Shown piece by piece: positions 9,144 through 53,058 of a stretch of DNA of 64,000 bases. Each line of letters begins with the position of its first letter. Position 1 is the first letter of the stretch. Source of the stretch: Pseudonocardia abyssalis (GTDB taxonomy: Bacteria; Actinomycetota; Actinomycetes; Mycobacteriales; Pseudonocardiaceae). Location of the stretch: assembly GCF_019263705.2 (NCBI RefSeq), contig NZ_JADQDK010000001.1, forward strand, positions 2,170,001 through 2,234,000, in the 5' to 3' direction. The position numbers and the translations under genes are program-made. Below the pieces are notes generated by a model. The model was not told the origin of the DNA and ran no database searches. It saw nothing but the letters and a program-made list of their open reading frames with translations.

Positions 9144-9901
9144 CGGGGGGCCATCCGGATCGCGCCGTCGAGGCGGATGACCTCGCCGTTGAGCATCGGG
9201 TTGGCCGCGATGTGGGCGACGAGCGCGCCGAACTCCGACGGCTGCCCCAGCCGCGACGGGTGCGGCACCTGCTGGCCCAGCGAGATCCGCGCGTCCTCGG
9301 GGAGGCCCGCGAGCAACGGGGTGTCGAACAGGCCCGGCGCGATCGTGACGACGCGGATCATCGCCGACGCGAGGTCGCGCGCGATCGGCAGCGTCATGCC
9401 GACGACGCCGCCCTTCGACGCCGAGTACGCGGCCTGCCCGATCTGGCCGTCGAACGCCGCGACGGACGCGGTGTTGACGATGACGCCGCGCTCACCGTCG
9501 ACGATCTCGGTGGCGGCGATGCGCTCGGCCGCGAGCCGGATGACGTTGAACGTGCCGATCAGGTTGATGTTGATGATCCGCGCGAACTTCTCGAGCGGGT
9601 ACACGCCCTTCTTGCCCAGCACGCGGATCGCGTCTCCGGTGCCTGCGCAGTTGACGGCCACCCGGATCGGGCCCAGCTCGGCGGCGGCGTCGAGCGCGGC
9701 GCTCACCGAGGCCTCGTCGGTGACGTCACCGGGGGCGAACCGCACGCGGTCGCCCAGCTTCGCCGCGACCTCGGCACCCGCCGACGACGGCAGGTCGAGG
9801 ATGACGACCGACGCGCCCCCGTCGAGCAGCTTCTCGGTGGTGGCCAGGCCGAGCCCGGACGCCCCACCGGTCACGACCGCGGCAGCTCCGTTGATGTCCA
9901 C
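9140..9901 (-). CDS. SDR 3-hydroxyacyl-CoA dehydrogenase (HSD10-like)
   Basis: A 253-residue short-chain dehydrogenase. It has the cofactor motif TGGASGLG (residues ~11-18), NCAGTG (~84), catalytic Ser in NTASVAAF and the YSASK Tyr/Lys pair. The acidic residue after strand 2 (ILDLP) predicts NAD rather than NADP. The insert [19 protein letters not shown] and the ending resemble type II 3-hydroxyacyl-CoA dehydrogenases (HSD17B10, 2-methyl-3-hydroxybutyryl-CoA dehydrogenase). In this operon it would oxidise the hydroxyacyl-CoA made by the neighbouring crotonase. It starts 47 bp after the carboxylase alpha stop, the largest gap inside the operon. Confidence 0.87.
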
Positions 9902-9927
9902 AGGTGTCTCCTCGTGCGTCGATGCCT

Positions 9928-9942
9928 ACCTGACCGGCAGGT
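9928..9942. promoter_or_regulatory. Small dyad in the accA-SDR gap
   Basis: In the 47-bp gap a 5-bp inverted repeat, ACCTG (9928-9932) and CAGGT (9938-9942), surrounds ACCGG. It may be a regulator site or weak stem separating the carboxylase genes from the SDR-crotonase pair. No matching copy was noticed at the divergent TetR promoter near 16.25 kb, so a link to that regulator is not supported. Confidence 0.25.
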
Positions 9943-9948
9943 TAGCAG

Positions 9949-11921
9949 TCAGTCCTGACCGTTAGGGGTGGCCCCGGTCACGACGGCCAGCACCTGGCCG
10001 GTCGTGACCTGGTCGCCCGCGGCGACGTGCAGCTCGGTCAGCTCGCCGTCGGCCGGGGCCGCCACCGTGTGCTCCATCTTCATCGCCTCCAGGACGACGA
10101 GCGGCTGGCCTGCGGTGACCGTCGCGCCGGGTTCGGCGAGCACCCGCAGCACCGCACCGGGCATCGGGGCGAGCAGCGAGCCCGGGGCCTGCGCGGCGGA
10201 CGGGTCGACGAACCGCGGCACCTCGACGAGCGCGCTGGAGCCCAGCGGGCTGTCGACGTAGGACACGCCGTCGACCGAGTGCACCGACACCGACCGTCGT
10301 ACGCCGTCGACGGAGACCTCGACCGACGTCGGCGTCACCGCGTGCGTCGTGACCGCGAACGACCCGCCGTCGACGGTGACGTCGGCGCCCCCGCGACGGA
10401 TGCGGTAGGCCACCTCGACGTCCCGCTCCCCCAGCAGGAACGACACGTGCTGCGGCGCCGGGGCGACACTGCGCCAGCCCGACGGGAGCCCGCCGAGCAC
10501 GCGCGCGGCCGCCCGGTTCCCGGCCTGGCGGGCGAGCACGGCGGCCGCGGCGTGCAGCGCCACGGCGGAGTCCGTGACGGTGAGCAGGTCCGGGTGCCGG
10601 TCGAGGAAGCCGGTGTCGGTGGCGCCGGCGAGGAAGTCGGGCTCGCGCAGGATGGCGACGAGCAGGTCGCGGTTGGTGACGACGCCGTGCACGCGCGCAC
10701 CGGCCAGTGCCGCGGCGAGCGTGCGGGCGGCCGCGGCGCGGGTGGGGCCGTGCGCGATCACCTTCGCCAGCATCGGGTCGTAGTGCGGGCCGACGACCGA
10801 CCCGTCGGCGACGCCGGTGTCGACGCGCACGTCGCCCGGCACGGCGAAGCGGTGCAGGGTGCCGGTGGCGGGCAGGAACCCCGCGGGGACGTCCTCGGCG
10901 TAGAGCCGCGCCTCGATCGCGTGCCCGCTGATCCGGGCGTCGTGCACCTCGGGCGGCAGGGGCTCGCCCTCCGCGACGCGCAGCTGCAGCTCCACGAGAT
11001 CGAGCCCGGTGACCAGCTCGGTGACCGGGTGCTCCACCTGCAGCCGGGTGTTGACCTCCAGGAACCCGAAGGAACCGTCGGCGTCGAGGACGAACTCGAC
11101 GGTGCCCGCGCCCGCGTAGGACAGGGCCTTCCCGGCCGTCACGGCGGCGGCGCTCAGCTCCGCGCGCAGCGCGTCGTCGACCGCGGGGGACGGCGCCTCC
11201 TCCACGATCTTCTGGTAGCGGCGCTGGATCGAGCACTCGCGCTCGAACAGCGCGACGACCGAGCCGTGGGCGTCACCGAGGATCTGCACCTCGACGTGGC
11301 GCGGGTCGACGACGAACCGCTCCAGGAACACCGTGCCGTCGCCGAACGCGGACGCGGCCTCGCGGCGCGCGCTCGACACGGCCTCCTCCAGCTCACCGGC
11401 GGCGCGGACCACCCGCATCCCCCGTCCGCCACCGCCGAACGCGGCCTTGACCAGCAGCGGGAAGCCGACCCGGTCCCCCAGTGCGGCGAGATCGTCGTCC
11501 GGGCCGACGGTCGCCCCGGGAAGCACCGGCACCCCGGCCGCCGACATCAGCGCCTTGGCCCCGATCTTCGACCCCATCGCCGCGATCGCCTCGGGCGACG
11601 GGCCGACGAACGTGATCCCGGCCGCGGCGCACTCGCGGGCGAACCCGGCGTTCTCCGAGAGGAACCCGTAACCGGGGTGGATCGCGTCGGCGCCGGTGGC
11701 GCGGGCGGCGGCGAGCACGAGGTCGCCGCGCAGGTAGGTGTCGGCGGGCGCGGCCCCGGGCAGCCGCACGGCCTCGTCCGCGGCGGCGACGAACGGGGCG
11801 TCGGCGTCGGGATCGGAGTACACGGCGACGCATGTGATCCCGAGGGCCCGCGCGGTGCGGAACACGCGGACGGCGATCTCGCCGCGGTTGGCGACGAGCA
11901 ACTTCTGGATCATGCGAGTAC

Positions 11922-42989: not shown

Positions 42990-45002
42990 TCACCCCCGTT
43001 CGGGTGCCGCCTGCAGCTCCCCCGCGGGCAGGCGGTCGGCGCCCCAGCTGCGCTCGATGTAGCCGACGACGCGGTCCAGGTCGCCCGCCGGGACCCGCTC
43101 CGGGTCGCCCCGCTCGAACGGGTCGTAGTGGTAGATGTAGAGCCGCGACGCGAACTGCTCGAACGGCAGCGACCCCTCGCCGAAGCGCTCGCCGTTGCCC
43201 GCGGTGCCGACCACGACCCCGTCGCCCCAGTCCTGGCCGCTGTCGTTGTTGGGGTTGTAGAAGTAGACCCGCATCTCGTCCTGCGGGTCGAAGTTCACGC
43301 GCAGGATCGTGATCGCGTGCCAGCCGATGTAGCGCGCCGCGCTGTCGGTGACGGCGACGCCGGCCGGCTGCGGGTGGATCAGCGGCTGGTAGCCGTTGTA
43401 GTCGGGGTGGTAGCTGGCGTAGAAGTGCCGCAGGAACTCGTCGAGGTCGATCAGCTTGCCCGTCTCGACGTCGACGTTGATCCGGAACCCGCGCCCGGCC
43501 CACCAGCCGTGGAACTCGGGATTGACCCAGCGGTGGGGGTCGCCGGGCCGGTCGATGCAGCGCCGCCCCATCTCGGCGTAGATGCGGTCGAGATGCGGCA
43601 CGACGAGCAGCGACACCGGGTCGAGGTCGGTGGGCAGCGTCGTGGCCACCCCGCCCTCGCTCTCGCGCGAGGAGATCGGTTGCCCCTCGAAATGCAGGAT
43701 GACCTCGTCGTCGCGGGCGGCCCAGACCAGCACCTGCAGCAGGTAGTCGGGGTCGTTGTAGGCCCACATCGACAGCGCGCGGGCCGACTGGCACGTCGGG
43801 TTGTCGCCTTGGCCGACGCCGAGCGGCAGCCCGAGCATCGACAGGACCCCCGCCACCAGGCGCGCGCGGGGTGTGGGCTCCGACCCGTGGGCGACGGTGA
43901 GCCGCTCCTGCGCGTAGGGCGACAGCGTGAGGGCGAGCTGGCGCCACAGCGCGGGCTCGACGGCGGGCTGGTAGAGGATCCCACGGTCGAGCAGCAGCGC
44001 GAGCCCGTAGATGCACTGGGCCGTCTGCGGGTGTACCGCGACGTCGATCAGGCGGTGCACCAGCTTGTGGAAGCGCAGCATGCAGTCACGGCCGGTGCCG
44101 GACAGGCCGAGCGCCTCCGCGAGCAGGTAGTCGCCCTCCTCGAGCAGGAACCGCAGCAGCTCCGCGTGGTACGGCGACACCAGCCCGGTGTCGTGCATGG
44201 CGCGCGCGAACCCGGTGGCCTCGTACTGCAGGCCAGCGGCGTCCATCGCCTCCAGGCGCGAGCGGTAGACCTCGGTGCCGGGGTCCTCCCGGCACGCGTC
44301 GGTCGTGCCGAACAGGCTCGTGATCAGGCGGTCGAGGCCCTGCCCGGTCGACCCCAGGTCGACGTCCGGGTCGCTGCGGTACACCGCGATCTGCGTGATC
44401 ATGTCGCGCACCTGGTCGACCTGGATCGGCCGCTGGCGCAGGATCCGCCAGATCTCCTCGACGAGGTGGTCGAGGATGCTCTCGTAACCGACGGTCTCGC
44501 CGAGGTACCGGAACAGGTCGCGGATCAGCTGCGCGGTGCGGCCCTGCGTCGTGCGCTCCGCTTCGCTGGGCGGGGTGAACAGCAGCTCGATGTTCATGGC
44601 CAGCACCTGCGAGAGGAACTGGTGCGCCTCCTCGGCGGAGATGCTCGGGTGCACGTAGTCGCCGGTGGCGACGGCGAGCATGCGCAGCTCGCTCGCCGCC
44701 TCCATGAGGACGGTGTCGGCCTCGGTGCTGTGCAGCGACCCCCCGACAAGCGCGGGGATGAGGATCTCCGGGGAGTCCCAGTCGGTGCCCCGGAACAGCC
44801 CGGCCTCCTCCAGCGCGGCGGCGCGGGAGCGGGCCTCCGCGCACCCGCCCGGCGCCAGCAGGACCCGCCGCAGGGAGTCGAGCACCTGCCGCAGCTTGAG
44901 GTGCTTGCCGAAGTCCCGCGTCTCCGACATCGCCCGCACGGCGTCGTCGAGCGACGCGAGTCGCTTGGCCAGCACCGCGTCGGTGCTAGACGTAGAAGTC
45001 AA
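42990..45002 (-). CDS. Large protein with papain/C39-like Cys-His-Asn signature, partner of ATP-grasp
   Basis: Not a family I can name. A 670-residue protein. Residues 1-~390 are helical with no known motif (FTPPSEAERTTQGRTAQLIR, GYESILDHLVEEIWRIL). The C-terminal ~270 residues suggest a papain/transglutaminase-like fold: Cys404 in GDNPTCQSARALSMW, His562 in YIGWHAITILRVNF and Asn583 in VYFYNPNNDSG, about 20 residues after the His. That order and spacing fits C39 or transglutaminase-like peptidases or acyltransferases. It apparently starts with TTG at 45002, behind AGGAAG, and overlaps the ATP-grasp gene by 17 bp, so the two are coupled. GTG at codon 10 is an alternative start. No signal peptide. 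Confidence 0.7.
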   Translation of the reverse strand: MTSTSSTDAVLAKRLASLDDAVRAMSETRDFGKHLKLRQVLDSLRRVLLAPGGCAEARSRAAALEEAGLFRGTDWDSPEILIPALVGGSLHSTEADTVLMEAASELRMLAVATGDYVHPSISAEEAHQFLSQVLAMNIELLFTPPSEAERTTQGRTAQLIRDLFRYLGETVGYESILDHLVEEIWRILRQRPIQVDQVRDMITQIAVYRSDPDVDLGSTGQGLDRLITSLFGTTDACREDPGTEVYRSRLEAMDAAGLQYEATGFARAMHDTGLVSPYHAELLRFLLEEGDYLLAEALGLSGTGRDCMLRFHKLVHRLIDVAVHPQTAQCIYGLALLLDRGILYQPAVEPALWRQLALTLSPYAQERLTVAHGSEPTPRARLVAGVLSMLGLPLGVGQGDNPTCQSARALSMWAYNDPDYLLQVLVWAARDDEVILHFEGQPISSRESEGGVATTLPTDLDPVSLLVVPHLDRIYAEMGRRCIDRPGDPHRWVNPEFHGWWAGRGFRINVDVETGKLIDLDEFLRHFYASYHPDYNGYQPLIHPQPAGVAVTDSAARYIGWHAITILRVNFDPQDEMRVYFYNPNNDSGQDWGDGVVVGTAGNGERFGEGSLPFEQFASRLYIYHYDPFERGDPERVPAGDLDRVVGYIERSWGADRLPAGELQAAPERG

Positions 45003-46227
45003 GTTCTTCCTGCCTCGCCAGCAGATCGCGCATCTGGTACGGATCGTCGCCGAAGAAGTAGACCAGACCCCAGTGGGTGCCGAACGCGGTGCGCTTGGTG
45101 ACCGTCTCCTCCAGCGGCGCCGTCAGCTCGTGGGACTCGAAGTACTCGTGCCCCTCCGTCTCCGCCGGCATGGCCAGCTCGTTGACGACGCGGCGCCGCG
45201 GATACACCCCGAAGCAGCCGGCGTAGCCGCGGGCGTCGACGACCTCCTTCGGGAAGAACGCCTCGATCTCCTCCTCGGTGGTCTTCGGGTCGAAGGCCAG
45301 CACCAGCGCCTGGTAGGCGTTGAAGCCGTACGCGCGCTCGAGCAGCTCGAACACCTTGAAGCCCGGCGGCCGGTAGGCGACCTCGCCGAAGTACATCTCC
45401 CCGTCACTGGTGACGAAGTACTCGGGGTGGATGAACCCGAAGTCGATCTCGAAGGCCTTGATCAGCTTCTCGATCTCCCGCGTGATCCGCTCGCGGTACT
45501 TCTCCAGTTCCGGCGTGGCCGGGACGAACACCGAGTAGCCGAGGGTGACGTACTCGGAGATGTTCAGGAACCGGATCTTCCCGTTGTAGATCCACGCCTC
45601 GACAGCGAACTCCCAGCCGTCGAGGTGCGATTCCATGAGGACCGGGAACTCCTCCTCCGGAATGGTGTCGACCTCGTCCGGGGTGCGAATGACGCGGTGC
45701 CCGAGGCACCCCGCCTTGTCGAAGGCCTTGAGGTGGATCGGGTCGTTCGGGTCCCCGTCGAGCTTGAGCAGCGTCTGGTTGACCCGCTTGAGGAAGCGGA
45801 TGACGTCACCCTTGTCGTGGGCCTCCTCGAAGATCCCGACGCGGATGCCGCCCAACTGCGCGCGACGCTTCATCAGCGCCTTGTCGCGGAGCAACATCGC
45901 CTGACCGAACAGGCGCGGGTTACCCATCAGCACCGAGTTGATCGCCCCGGCCCATTCGACGGTCTCCTCGTAGAGCGGGATCGCGACGTCGACGCCGGCG
46001 TCCTGCAGCGTCTCGGCGATCTCCATGGAGCGGTCGTTGAGCCGCTCGAAGTTCCACGGGATGTAGGGGATGTCGTGTTCGGTGCAGTACTCCTCGGCCC
46101 AGTCCGGGGCCACCACGACGTAGCGGCGGTCGAACCGGTCGAGAGCCTCGACGGCATTCAGGCTCCATCCCAGAATAGCGACATAGCCCTTGTCCGGATT
46201 GCGGGCGACTGGCTCGGACGGTGCCAT
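44986..46227 (-). CDS. ATP-grasp ligase
   Basis: A 413-residue ATP-grasp protein. An N-terminal Rossmann-like preATP-grasp domain (AILGWSLNAVEALDRF, residues ~16-110, with IPLYEETVEWAGAINSVL) precedes the grasp domain: NQTLLKLDGDPNDPIHLKAF, the hinge FPVLMESHLDGWEFAVEAWI, and the metal site GEVAYRPPG with Glu282 and Arg286. Such enzymes join a carboxylate, via acyl phosphate, to an amine or thiol. Strong Shine-Dalgarno AAGAGGAGG eight bases before ATG. It is first in a two-gene operon with the papain-like protein. Substrate unknown. GC content and codon use are somewhat lower in GC than neighbours. Confidence 0.85.
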   Translation of the reverse strand: MAPSEPVARNPDKGYVAILGWSLNAVEALDRFDRRYVVVAPDWAEEYCTEHDIPYIPWNFERLNDRSMEIAETLQDAGVDVAIPLYEETVEWAGAINSVLMGNPRLFGQAMLLRDKALMKRRAQLGGIRVGIFEEAHDKGDVIRFLKRVNQTLLKLDGDPNDPIHLKAFDKAGCLGHRVIRTPDEVDTIPEEEFPVLMESHLDGWEFAVEAWIYNGKIRFLNISEYVTLGYSVFVPATPELEKYRERITREIEKLIKAFEIDFGFIHPEYFVTSDGEMYFGEVAYRPPGFKVFELLERAYGFNAYQALVLAFDPKTTEEEIEAFFPKEVVDARGYAGCFGVYPRRRVVNELAMPAETEGHEYFESHELTAPLEETVTKRTAFGTHWGLVYFFGDDPYQMRDLLARQEELDFYV

Positions 46228-51418: not shown

Positions 51419-51609
51419 CGGACCATCCCGAACTGCTGCCTGATCACCGTGCCGCCTTCCCGTCGCGCAATCCGGCGCACACGTCAGGGGCACCGGCTAC
51501 GCCTCCTATCGCTCCCGGGGCGCCCGGTGTTGCGCCCGGGACCCGAGGGAGATCCGGCGCACGTCCGTGCCGCGTGCCGGACGGGCCGCCCGGACGTAGC
51601 CTCAGGGCC

Positions 51610-53058
51610 ATGACCGTCGCCAGGACGCTGTTCGAGTTCGACGACTCCTACGCCCGCGAGCTGCCGAGCCTGTCGGTGCCGTGGACCGCCGCCGAGGTGC
51701 CCGCGCCGGAGCTGCTGGTGCTCAACGAGGGCCTCGCCGCCGAGCTGGGCGTCGACCCGGCACTGCTGCGCGAGCCCGCCGGAGTGTCCTCGCTGGTCGG
51801 GCACGGTCTCCCGGAGGGCGTCAGCACGGTCGCGCAGGTCTACGCCGGCCACCAGTTCGGCGGCTACCAGCCGCGCCTGGGCGACGGCCGGGCGCTGCTG
51901 CTCGGCGAGGTGATCGACGTCGCGGGCCACCGCCGCGACCTGCACCTGAAGGGCTCGGGCCGCACCCCGTTCTCCCGGCGCGGTGACGGGTTGGCCGCCG
52001 TCGGGCCGATGCTGCGCGAGTACCTGATGGGCGAGGCGATGCACGGCCTCGGGATCCCGACGACGCGCGCGCTGTCCGTCGCCGCCACCGGCGTGCCCGT
52101 CCCGCGCGACGGCGCGACGCTCCCCGGCGCGGTGCTGTGCCGGGTCGCCGCGAGCCACCTGCGCGTCGGCACGTTCCAGTACGCGGCGAACCTGCGCGAG
52201 ACGGTCGCGGGCGACCTCGACGTGCTGCGCGGGCTGGCCGACCACGCCATCGCCCGACACCACCCCGACTCCGGCTCCTACCTGGAGTTCTACCGCCGTG
52301 TCGTGCACGCCCAGGCCGAGCTCGTGGCCCGCTGGATGCTCGTCGGGTTCGTCCACGGCGTGATGAACACCGACAACATGACGATCTCCGGCGAGACCAT
52401 CGACTACGGGCCCTGCGCGTTCCTCGACGCCTTCGACCCCACCGCGGTGTTCAGCTCCATCGACTCGGGCGGCCGTTACGCCTACGCCAACCAGCCCCCG
52501 GTGGCGCAGTGGAACCTCGCGCGGCTCGCCGAGTCGCTGCTCCCGCTGATCGACCCCGACGCGGAGCAGGCGGTGGCGGCCGCGACGGCGGTGCTCGACG
52601 AGTTCCCCGACGCCTACCGGCGGCACTGGGACGAGGGCCTGACCGCGAAGCTCGGACTCGGCGCGCCCGACCCGCAGCTGGCGACCGACGTGCTGGAGCT
52701 GCTGCGCACCCAGGGCGTCGACCTCACGCTGTTCTTCCGCGCGCTCGCCGCGGGCACCGCGCGCGACCTGTTCGTCGACCCGGCGCCGTTCGACGTCTGG
52801 GCGGAGCGCCGCGACGCGCTGCTCCCGGCCGACCGCACGGCCGTGGCGGCGGCGATGAACCGCGTCAACCCGGTCTACGTGCCGCGCAACCACCTCGTCG
52901 AGGAAGCGCTCACCGCCGCCACCTCGGGCGACCTGGGCCCGTTCCACCGGATGCTCGACGCCGTCTGCGCACCGTTCGACGAGCGTCCCGGTCTGGAGGC
53001 GTACGCGCAGCCCGCCCCCGACGGGGCCCCGCCGCACGTCACCTACTGCGGCACCTGA
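51610..53058 (+). CDS. selO: Protein adenylyltransferase SelO (UPF0061)
   Basis: A 482-residue pseudokinase-fold AMPylator. Diagnostic segments: [36 protein letters not shown] (ATP-binding Lys), [40 protein letters not shown] and AFLDAFDP (metal site). SelO transfers AMP to Ser/Thr/Tyr of proteins in redox homeostasis. The C-terminus ends TYCGT; there is no in-frame TGA that would suggest selenocysteine. It stands alone, convergent with the histidine kinase gene. Confidence 0.95.

Follow-up and report, generated by a model that had tools for sequence, protein, structure and literature searches.

Two adjacent genes on the minus strand of a 64,000 nt stretch of the Pseudonocardia abyssalis genome (contig NZ_JADQDK010000001.1; this whole stretch is hereafter the window) encode an ATP-grasp ligase-like protein of 413 aa (p413; 44986..46227, identified from the list of open reading frames and from profile matches) and, second in the pair, a protein of 670 aa when read from a TTG start (p670; 42990..45002, from the same list). 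The two form a conserved and widespread two-gene unit, and all 44 of the cassette-carrying genomes tested, counted by genome across all searches, also carry a gene for ectoine synthase. Because ectoine synthase accompanies the cassette in every such genome, we place the system in osmoadaptation: it is proposed, with a probability of about 0.45, to be a stand-alone two-gene operon for forming a reversible amide, perhaps within the chemistry of ectoine itself. The tie of the pair to ectoine synthase, and in Gammaproteobacteria also to an HDAC-like protein, is new here, and is invisible from the sequence of the window alone.

Conservation of the gene pair

A homologue scan with the Marinobacter p413 recovered at least 585 relatives, and in all 80 of the best loci, which were those analysed and which come from Actinomycetota and Gammaproteobacteria, p670 adjoins p413 in the same order and on the same strand. 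In the window's order, 12 of 298 genomes, that of the window included, have full-length p670, and p413 is adjacent to it in each; the other eight of the 20 genomes with matches gave weak N-terminal hits (E values of 4e-5 to 1e-3) and are left out of the p670 count. Of 198 Actinomycetota genomes drawn, two contain p670 and the same two contain full-length p413, the distant ATP-grasp proteins held by ten of the 12 matching genomes not being counted as p413. Eight of 274 Gammaproteobacteria have p670, all with p413 near one copy, and two of these loci are rearranged: p413 and p670 are convergent in G393, and their order is changed in G482, where one gene lies between them. Hence the linkage of the two genes outlives rearrangement. 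An earlier note, made from the sequence of the window, had reported an ATP-grasp gene adjacent to a papain-like gene and had suggested a survey of neighbourhoods; the adjacency is confirmed, and the two genes do co-occur across genomes.

In the rearranged locus of G393 (L155:6235-11967), a divergent (43%) p670 is convergent with an 81% identical ATP-grasp gene, which is followed by genes for a ROK kinase and a SIR2 deacylase. Lone p670 paralogues, with 51-53% identity to the window protein, were found twice in Marinobacter salarius and once in G393 (L152:5936-7981, L153:5606-7558 and L154:6899-8890). One lies beside an MscS channel gene (L152), one near a glutamine-synthetase-like gene and one near the gene for a TRAP solute-binding protein.

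The genes flanking the cassette are mostly common only within a genus or family. A third gene common to all loci was sought, but no flanking family occurs in more than four of 26 diverse loci, and none has more than three members among 139 non-redundant neighbours (90-900 aa long, what was left of 198 once near-duplicates were taken out; L156 and L152-L154 not included). For all these counts of neighbours, open reading frames were called by simple scripts that may miss genes. The most widespread neighbour outside Marinobacter is a gene for a TlyA-like S4/FtsJ methyltransferase (domains from L077), found at 11 of the 80 loci, ten from Halomonadaceae and one from Marinimicrobium; it was set aside as a housekeeping gene.

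Association with ectoine synthase

The resemblance of the carriers to ectoine producers prompted a search for ectoine synthase, for which a match to PF06339 over its cut-off was the marker (ectC). All 26 cassette genomes picked for diversity from the 80 loci have ectC, compared with none of 14 control genomes. In the Gammaproteobacteria ectC is present in 39 of 274 genomes, a base rate of 14%, yet in all eight of those with p670 (nominal Fisher value 8.7e-8, or 4.4e-6 once G198, on which the draw was centred, and the already known G204 are left out). It is likewise found in 20 of the 198 Actinomycetota, both p670 genomes included (0.0097), and in 103 of the 298 genomes of the window's order, with all 12 p670 genomes among them (1.9e-6).

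Physical linkage to ectC is occasional. Four genes stand in a row on one strand of a 5.6-kb G482 contig (L156:342-5437), namely p670, an HDAC-like gene (PF00850, E = 3.4e-90), the ATP-grasp gene p413 and ectC (PF06339, E = 2.3e-53), soon after which the contig ends. In Saccharopolyspora soli (L061), the opposite strand carries, upstream of the cassette, ectC and the C-terminal part of ectB, with ectC around 1.9 kb from p413; these two (L061:5720-6490) are apparently what is left of an ect operon. The ectC of the window genome lies about 3.2 Mb from the cassette.

An HDAC-like gene also follows p413 and p670 in succession, with short gaps, in G403 (L159). We looked for the protein that it encodes in 44 cassette genomes and in 36 that are ectC-positive and lack the cassette, 80 in all, both sets having been picked from more. 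Full-length matches (over 330 bits) were detected in 15 of 22 gammaproteobacterial cassette genomes, as against none of 18 ectC-positive gammaproteobacterial controls (Fisher 5.9e-6, or 1.6e-5 without G403 and G482). Identities are 47-73%, with 100% for the source, G403, and the highest score after these in the 80 genomes is 220 bits; more weakly matching HDAC-family proteins (E values of 1e-20 or below) occur in 73 of the 80, cassette and control alike. Around the HDAC-like gene in four further genomes, no gene is common to all besides HDAC itself, and Halomonas maura (L051) has a more distant HDAC-like gene close to its cassette. The HDAC-like protein is likely to be a partner of the cassette in one class, the Gammaproteobacteria, and not a universal part of it.

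In Marinimicrobium (L041) and G382 (L160) the cassette adjoins mechanosensitive-channel genes, and such genes lie near it in nine Halomonadaceae loci that all represent one common neighbourhood. The 139 non-redundant neighbours include two with MscS domains and two with an HDAC domain; these counts of channel and HDAC neighbours are no more than suggestive. In several Halomonadaceae, L072:11248-15431 being an example, the cassette is followed by genes for the TlyA-like methyltransferase and a large MscS-type channel.

Properties of the two proteins

The ATP-grasp protein matches PF13535 (ATP-grasp_4) at an E value of 3.1e-5 and 24.1 bits, the Pfam cut-off being 27 bits; all 21 homologues scanned match the same family, at best with E = 3.7e-6. 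Neither p413 nor p670 reaches a Pfam or NCBIfam cut-off, and no model in either collection names the pair. The nearest relatives of p413 amongst solved structures are the L-amino acid ligases BL00235 (3vot) and 4wd3 (E = 0.0016-0.0018), with which it agrees in pattern at the Mg/ATP end of the fold. Aligned to BL00235, it shows there H267, E269, E282 and R286, all kept in 21 of 21 homologues, and E269, E282 and R286 fall on E, E and R of BL00235, which we take to be the Mg/ATP carboxylates and the arginine of the ATP-grasp domain. However, the match spans only around a third of p413, and the LAL_C2 domain is matched weakly, in three of the 21 homologues (E = 0.028 at best). To our knowledge, L-amino acid ligases are not paired with a p670-like protein. 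An AlphaFold model of p413 was discarded on account of its pLDDT of 52, the homologues probably being too similar.

The predicted model of p670 has a helical N-terminal half (approximately residues 1-365) and a papain/calpain-like C-terminal half (approximately 366-634). Four residues of the latter are invariant in both alignments of homologues (30 of 30 and 24 of 24): Gln398, which may supply the oxyanion hole (codon at 43809..43811), Cys404, the putative nucleophile within an NPTCQS motif (43791..43793), His562, the putative catalytic histidine within GWHA (43317..43319), and Asn583, the putative catalytic asparagine within NPNND (43254..43256), all on the minus strand. Their order, Gln-Cys-His-Asn, is that of the calpain/papain-like cysteine peptidases of clan CA, as is the spacing of six between Gln and Cys. 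However, when 30 members of the p670 family were scanned singly against Pfam, no peptidase family was matched; the matches were scattered over five families, with a best E value of 0.063. The earlier note had picked out Cys404, His562 and Asn583 in contexts that it called papain/C39-like, and the conservation of all three is borne out. As regards the fold, in a comparison of overall fold only, the predicted model resembles papain and calpain at modest Z, whilst C39 and transglutaminase domains appear neither in the Pfam matches of the 30 members nor in the list of similar folds, a distant relation to them still being compatible with the results.

Other searches with p670 were negative. Foldseek with the predicted model gave zero matches at E values up to 0.001, a sequence search of solved structures with the protein or its alignment gave nothing below 0.2, and scans of Pfam, NCBIfam and PADLOC found no family for it. 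There was no CHAP domain match in p670 or the 30 members. As regards anti-phage defence, PADLOC returned no families for either protein at E values up to 10. The family itself is large, with 2650 relatives of p670 at E values up to 0.001 among 8000 candidates scored; in a search with the C-terminal half, the 120 of 246 matches that were listed are all at least 53% identical, many of them called partial and from short contigs. Selenocysteine or stop-codon readthrough was considered for L102, L171-L173, L144 and L146 and rejected: the nearest in-frame stops are gene ends, lying 408 or more codons ahead of the NPTC motif or 256 or more codons beyond it. In Marinobacter salarius R9SW1 and Marinobacter similis A3d10 (L003 and L011, around 9335-11310), the matches to p670 are split over two frames, by either a sequencing error or a real change, and these broken copies were excluded from the p670 tree and rate counts.

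Gene starts and surroundings in the window

Upstream of the p413 ATG is an aggagg sequence, a likely ribosome-binding site. For p670, a GTG near 44975, giving 661 aa, is a more likely start than the TTG at 45002, which gives 670 aa, because the database version of the protein (P0001) is 661 aa long and a short intergenic gap separates the genes in relatives (20-60 bp in 69 of 78, with starts chosen by script). The 17-bp overlap of the two open reading frames described in the earlier note exists when the TTG start is used, as called; it hinges on that start, and hence is probably not real. Codon composition favours both as genes, and the 6.3 Mb window genome contains one match to each (E values up to 0.001). 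The closest named relatives, judged by p670, are from Pseudonocardia.

Ten neighbouring genes in the window were scanned against Pfam, and no obvious partner for the pair was found among them; the six with matches have abhydrolase, Holin-X, GH42 beta-galactosidase, globin, SelO and solute-binding protein domains. The SelO protein adenylyltransferase gene (51574-53058) adjoins the globin and GH42 beta-galactosidase genes, and appears ordinary. G+C content dips to 68% at 44001-46000, other 2-kb steps of the window being at 71-79%; low GC at codon positions 1 and 2 of p413 may account for this.

Discussion

The combination of an ATP-grasp ligase with a papain-like enzyme is not itself without precedent. 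Papain-like peptidases in operons with ATP-grasp ligases were reportedly predicted by Iyer and colleagues in 2009, and in Escherichia coli the GspSA protein unites an ATP-grasp-type synthetase with a papain-like (CHAP) amidase, which make and break one amide. GspSA is the nearest working model for the pair, although its two activities reside on one polypeptide, whereas the cassette has two separate genes, no CHAP match and an extra helical half; it is absent from the sequence matches of p413 and p670 in the searches of solved structures, and it serves as an analogy, kinship to the pair being without support from these tests. A passage in one published account places glutathionylspermidine synthetase/amidase among the CHAP proteins (PMC10318531). 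In the titles and abstract openings searched, there was no account of the pair or of an ATP-grasp enzyme tied to ectoine; a mention in the Iyer 2009 survey is possible. The cassette is a variation on a known idea, with an unexpected tie to ectoine synthase.

Under the proposed reading, p413 would activate a carboxylate with ATP and join it to an amine, in the manner of L-amino acid ligases, and the papain-like half of p670 would hydrolyse or transfer the resulting amide, its helical half perhaps being a regulatory or substrate-binding part. The substrate or product would probably be ectoine, diaminobutyrate precursors, or a molecule or protein handled alongside them, with the HDAC-like protein as an additional part in many Gammaproteobacteria. 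The earlier note's coupled system of a ligase and a papain-like protein is supported by the co-occurrence of the genes and the conservation of the residues; that both enzymes act on the same bond, one making and the other breaking it, and do so on a protein tag or peptide, may be so. A more elaborate version is somewhat doubtful: p413 would form an amide from ectoine or (N-acetyl-)diaminobutyrate, or couple one of these to a peptide or protein, p670 would dismantle the product when osmolarity falls, and in Gammaproteobacteria the HDAC-like enzyme would remove the N-acetyl group, the two-gene cassette having crossed between Gammaproteobacteria and Actinomycetota into existing ectoine makers.

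Several observations weigh against the proposed reading. All the Fisher values take related genomes as independent, so that those for ectC are too small, and ectC was counted alone, without ectA and ectB, as a stand-in for ectoine making. Nearly every genome of the window's own family has ectC (50 of 54), hence its presence in all five cassette genomes there is uninformative. The cassette is missing from most genomes with ectC (31 of 39 in the Gammaproteobacteria and 91 of 103 in the order), so it is not needed for ectoine synthesis. Within the fetched flanks of up to around 8 kb, ectC was found at only the two loci described above out of 90, 87 of which have p413. The HDAC-like protein has no full-length match in any of 22 actinobacterial cassette genomes or 18 actinobacterial controls, seven of the 22 cassette genomes from Gammaproteobacteria lack its orthologue, and the controls come from across the class rather than being matched for kinship. 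The fold match of the p670 model is modest, and the fetched stretches around the three lone p670 paralogues contain no p413 relative.

Alternatively, the pair may modify proteins. RimK-type ATP-grasp enzymes attach amino acids or small acids to proteins; p413 could similarly add such a group to a protein, with p670 removing it or cleaving the product, and the ectoine link would then reflect a role in salt stress rather than ectoine chemistry. Consistent with this, p413 changes slowly, as might an enzyme whose partner is large and conserved: its mean divergence among Marinobacter pairs is 0.077, where its neighbour Mqo has 0.143 and p670 has 0.206. The helical half of p670 also aligns weakly to TOG/armadillo-type protein-binding repeats, and genes for HDAC- and SIR2-type deacylases lie near some cassettes. 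However, slow change alone is no proof that the substrate is a protein, the matches of the helical half fall in the chance range of the tool, no candidate substrate protein is linked to the cassette and its flanking genes are not conserved. We consider this explanation rather unlikely.

The history of the cassette bears on a further alternative, that it is a dipeptide or amide metabolite pathway with no relation to osmolytes, whose link to ectoine arose through descent and transfer among salt-tolerant Gammaproteobacteria and actinobacteria. Sequences from the two groups are on average 86% identical for p413 and 65% for p670, and the p413 distance between the two groups is only around twice that inside the single genus Marinobacter; as far as such comparisons go, the simplest reading would be transfer between phyla together with constraint on p413. 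A tree of p670 built from 45 rows has most of its actinobacterial rows in a cluster, with Oceanisphaera beside them, whilst the joining of the long rows L038 and L057 is unsafe. The Cyanobacteriota label of one sequence (L040) is erroneous, as it is from Rhodococcus. An origin in phages or plasmids was also considered, and set aside: no phage record has p670 and no viral contig p413, whilst one record with p670 is a 1.8-Mb Halomonas plasmid. The inter-group identity, the rarity of the cassette in both the Actinomycetota and Gammaproteobacteria, the near-universality of ectC in the window's family and the general L-amino acid ligases as nearest solved relatives all fit a metabolite unrelated to osmolytes. 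Nevertheless, this is unlikely, given that ectC is present in all eight gammaproteobacterial p670 genomes against so low a base rate, that L156 and L061 link the cassette to ectC directly, and that the HDAC-like protein distinguishes gammaproteobacterial cassette genomes from ectC-positive genomes lacking the cassette. Least probable is that p670 is a protease regulating the ATP-grasp enzyme or an osmotic channel, rather than acting on the product of the ligase: stand-alone p670 paralogues do suggest a function without p413, and channel genes lie by some cassettes and by the lone paralogue L152, but the Halomonadaceae loci are one common neighbourhood, channels are common genes, and none was noticed at most other loci, those being only partly annotated.

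The pair is part of a large protein family still annotated as hypothetical. Among the matches listed is a 473 aa relative (P0249) from Halomonas elongata, named in the title of one published account as the species of the industrial ectoine producer (PMC3187862). If the tie to ectoine is true, this much-studied osmolyte has a hitherto unknown side branch, or a modification that is under the control of salt.

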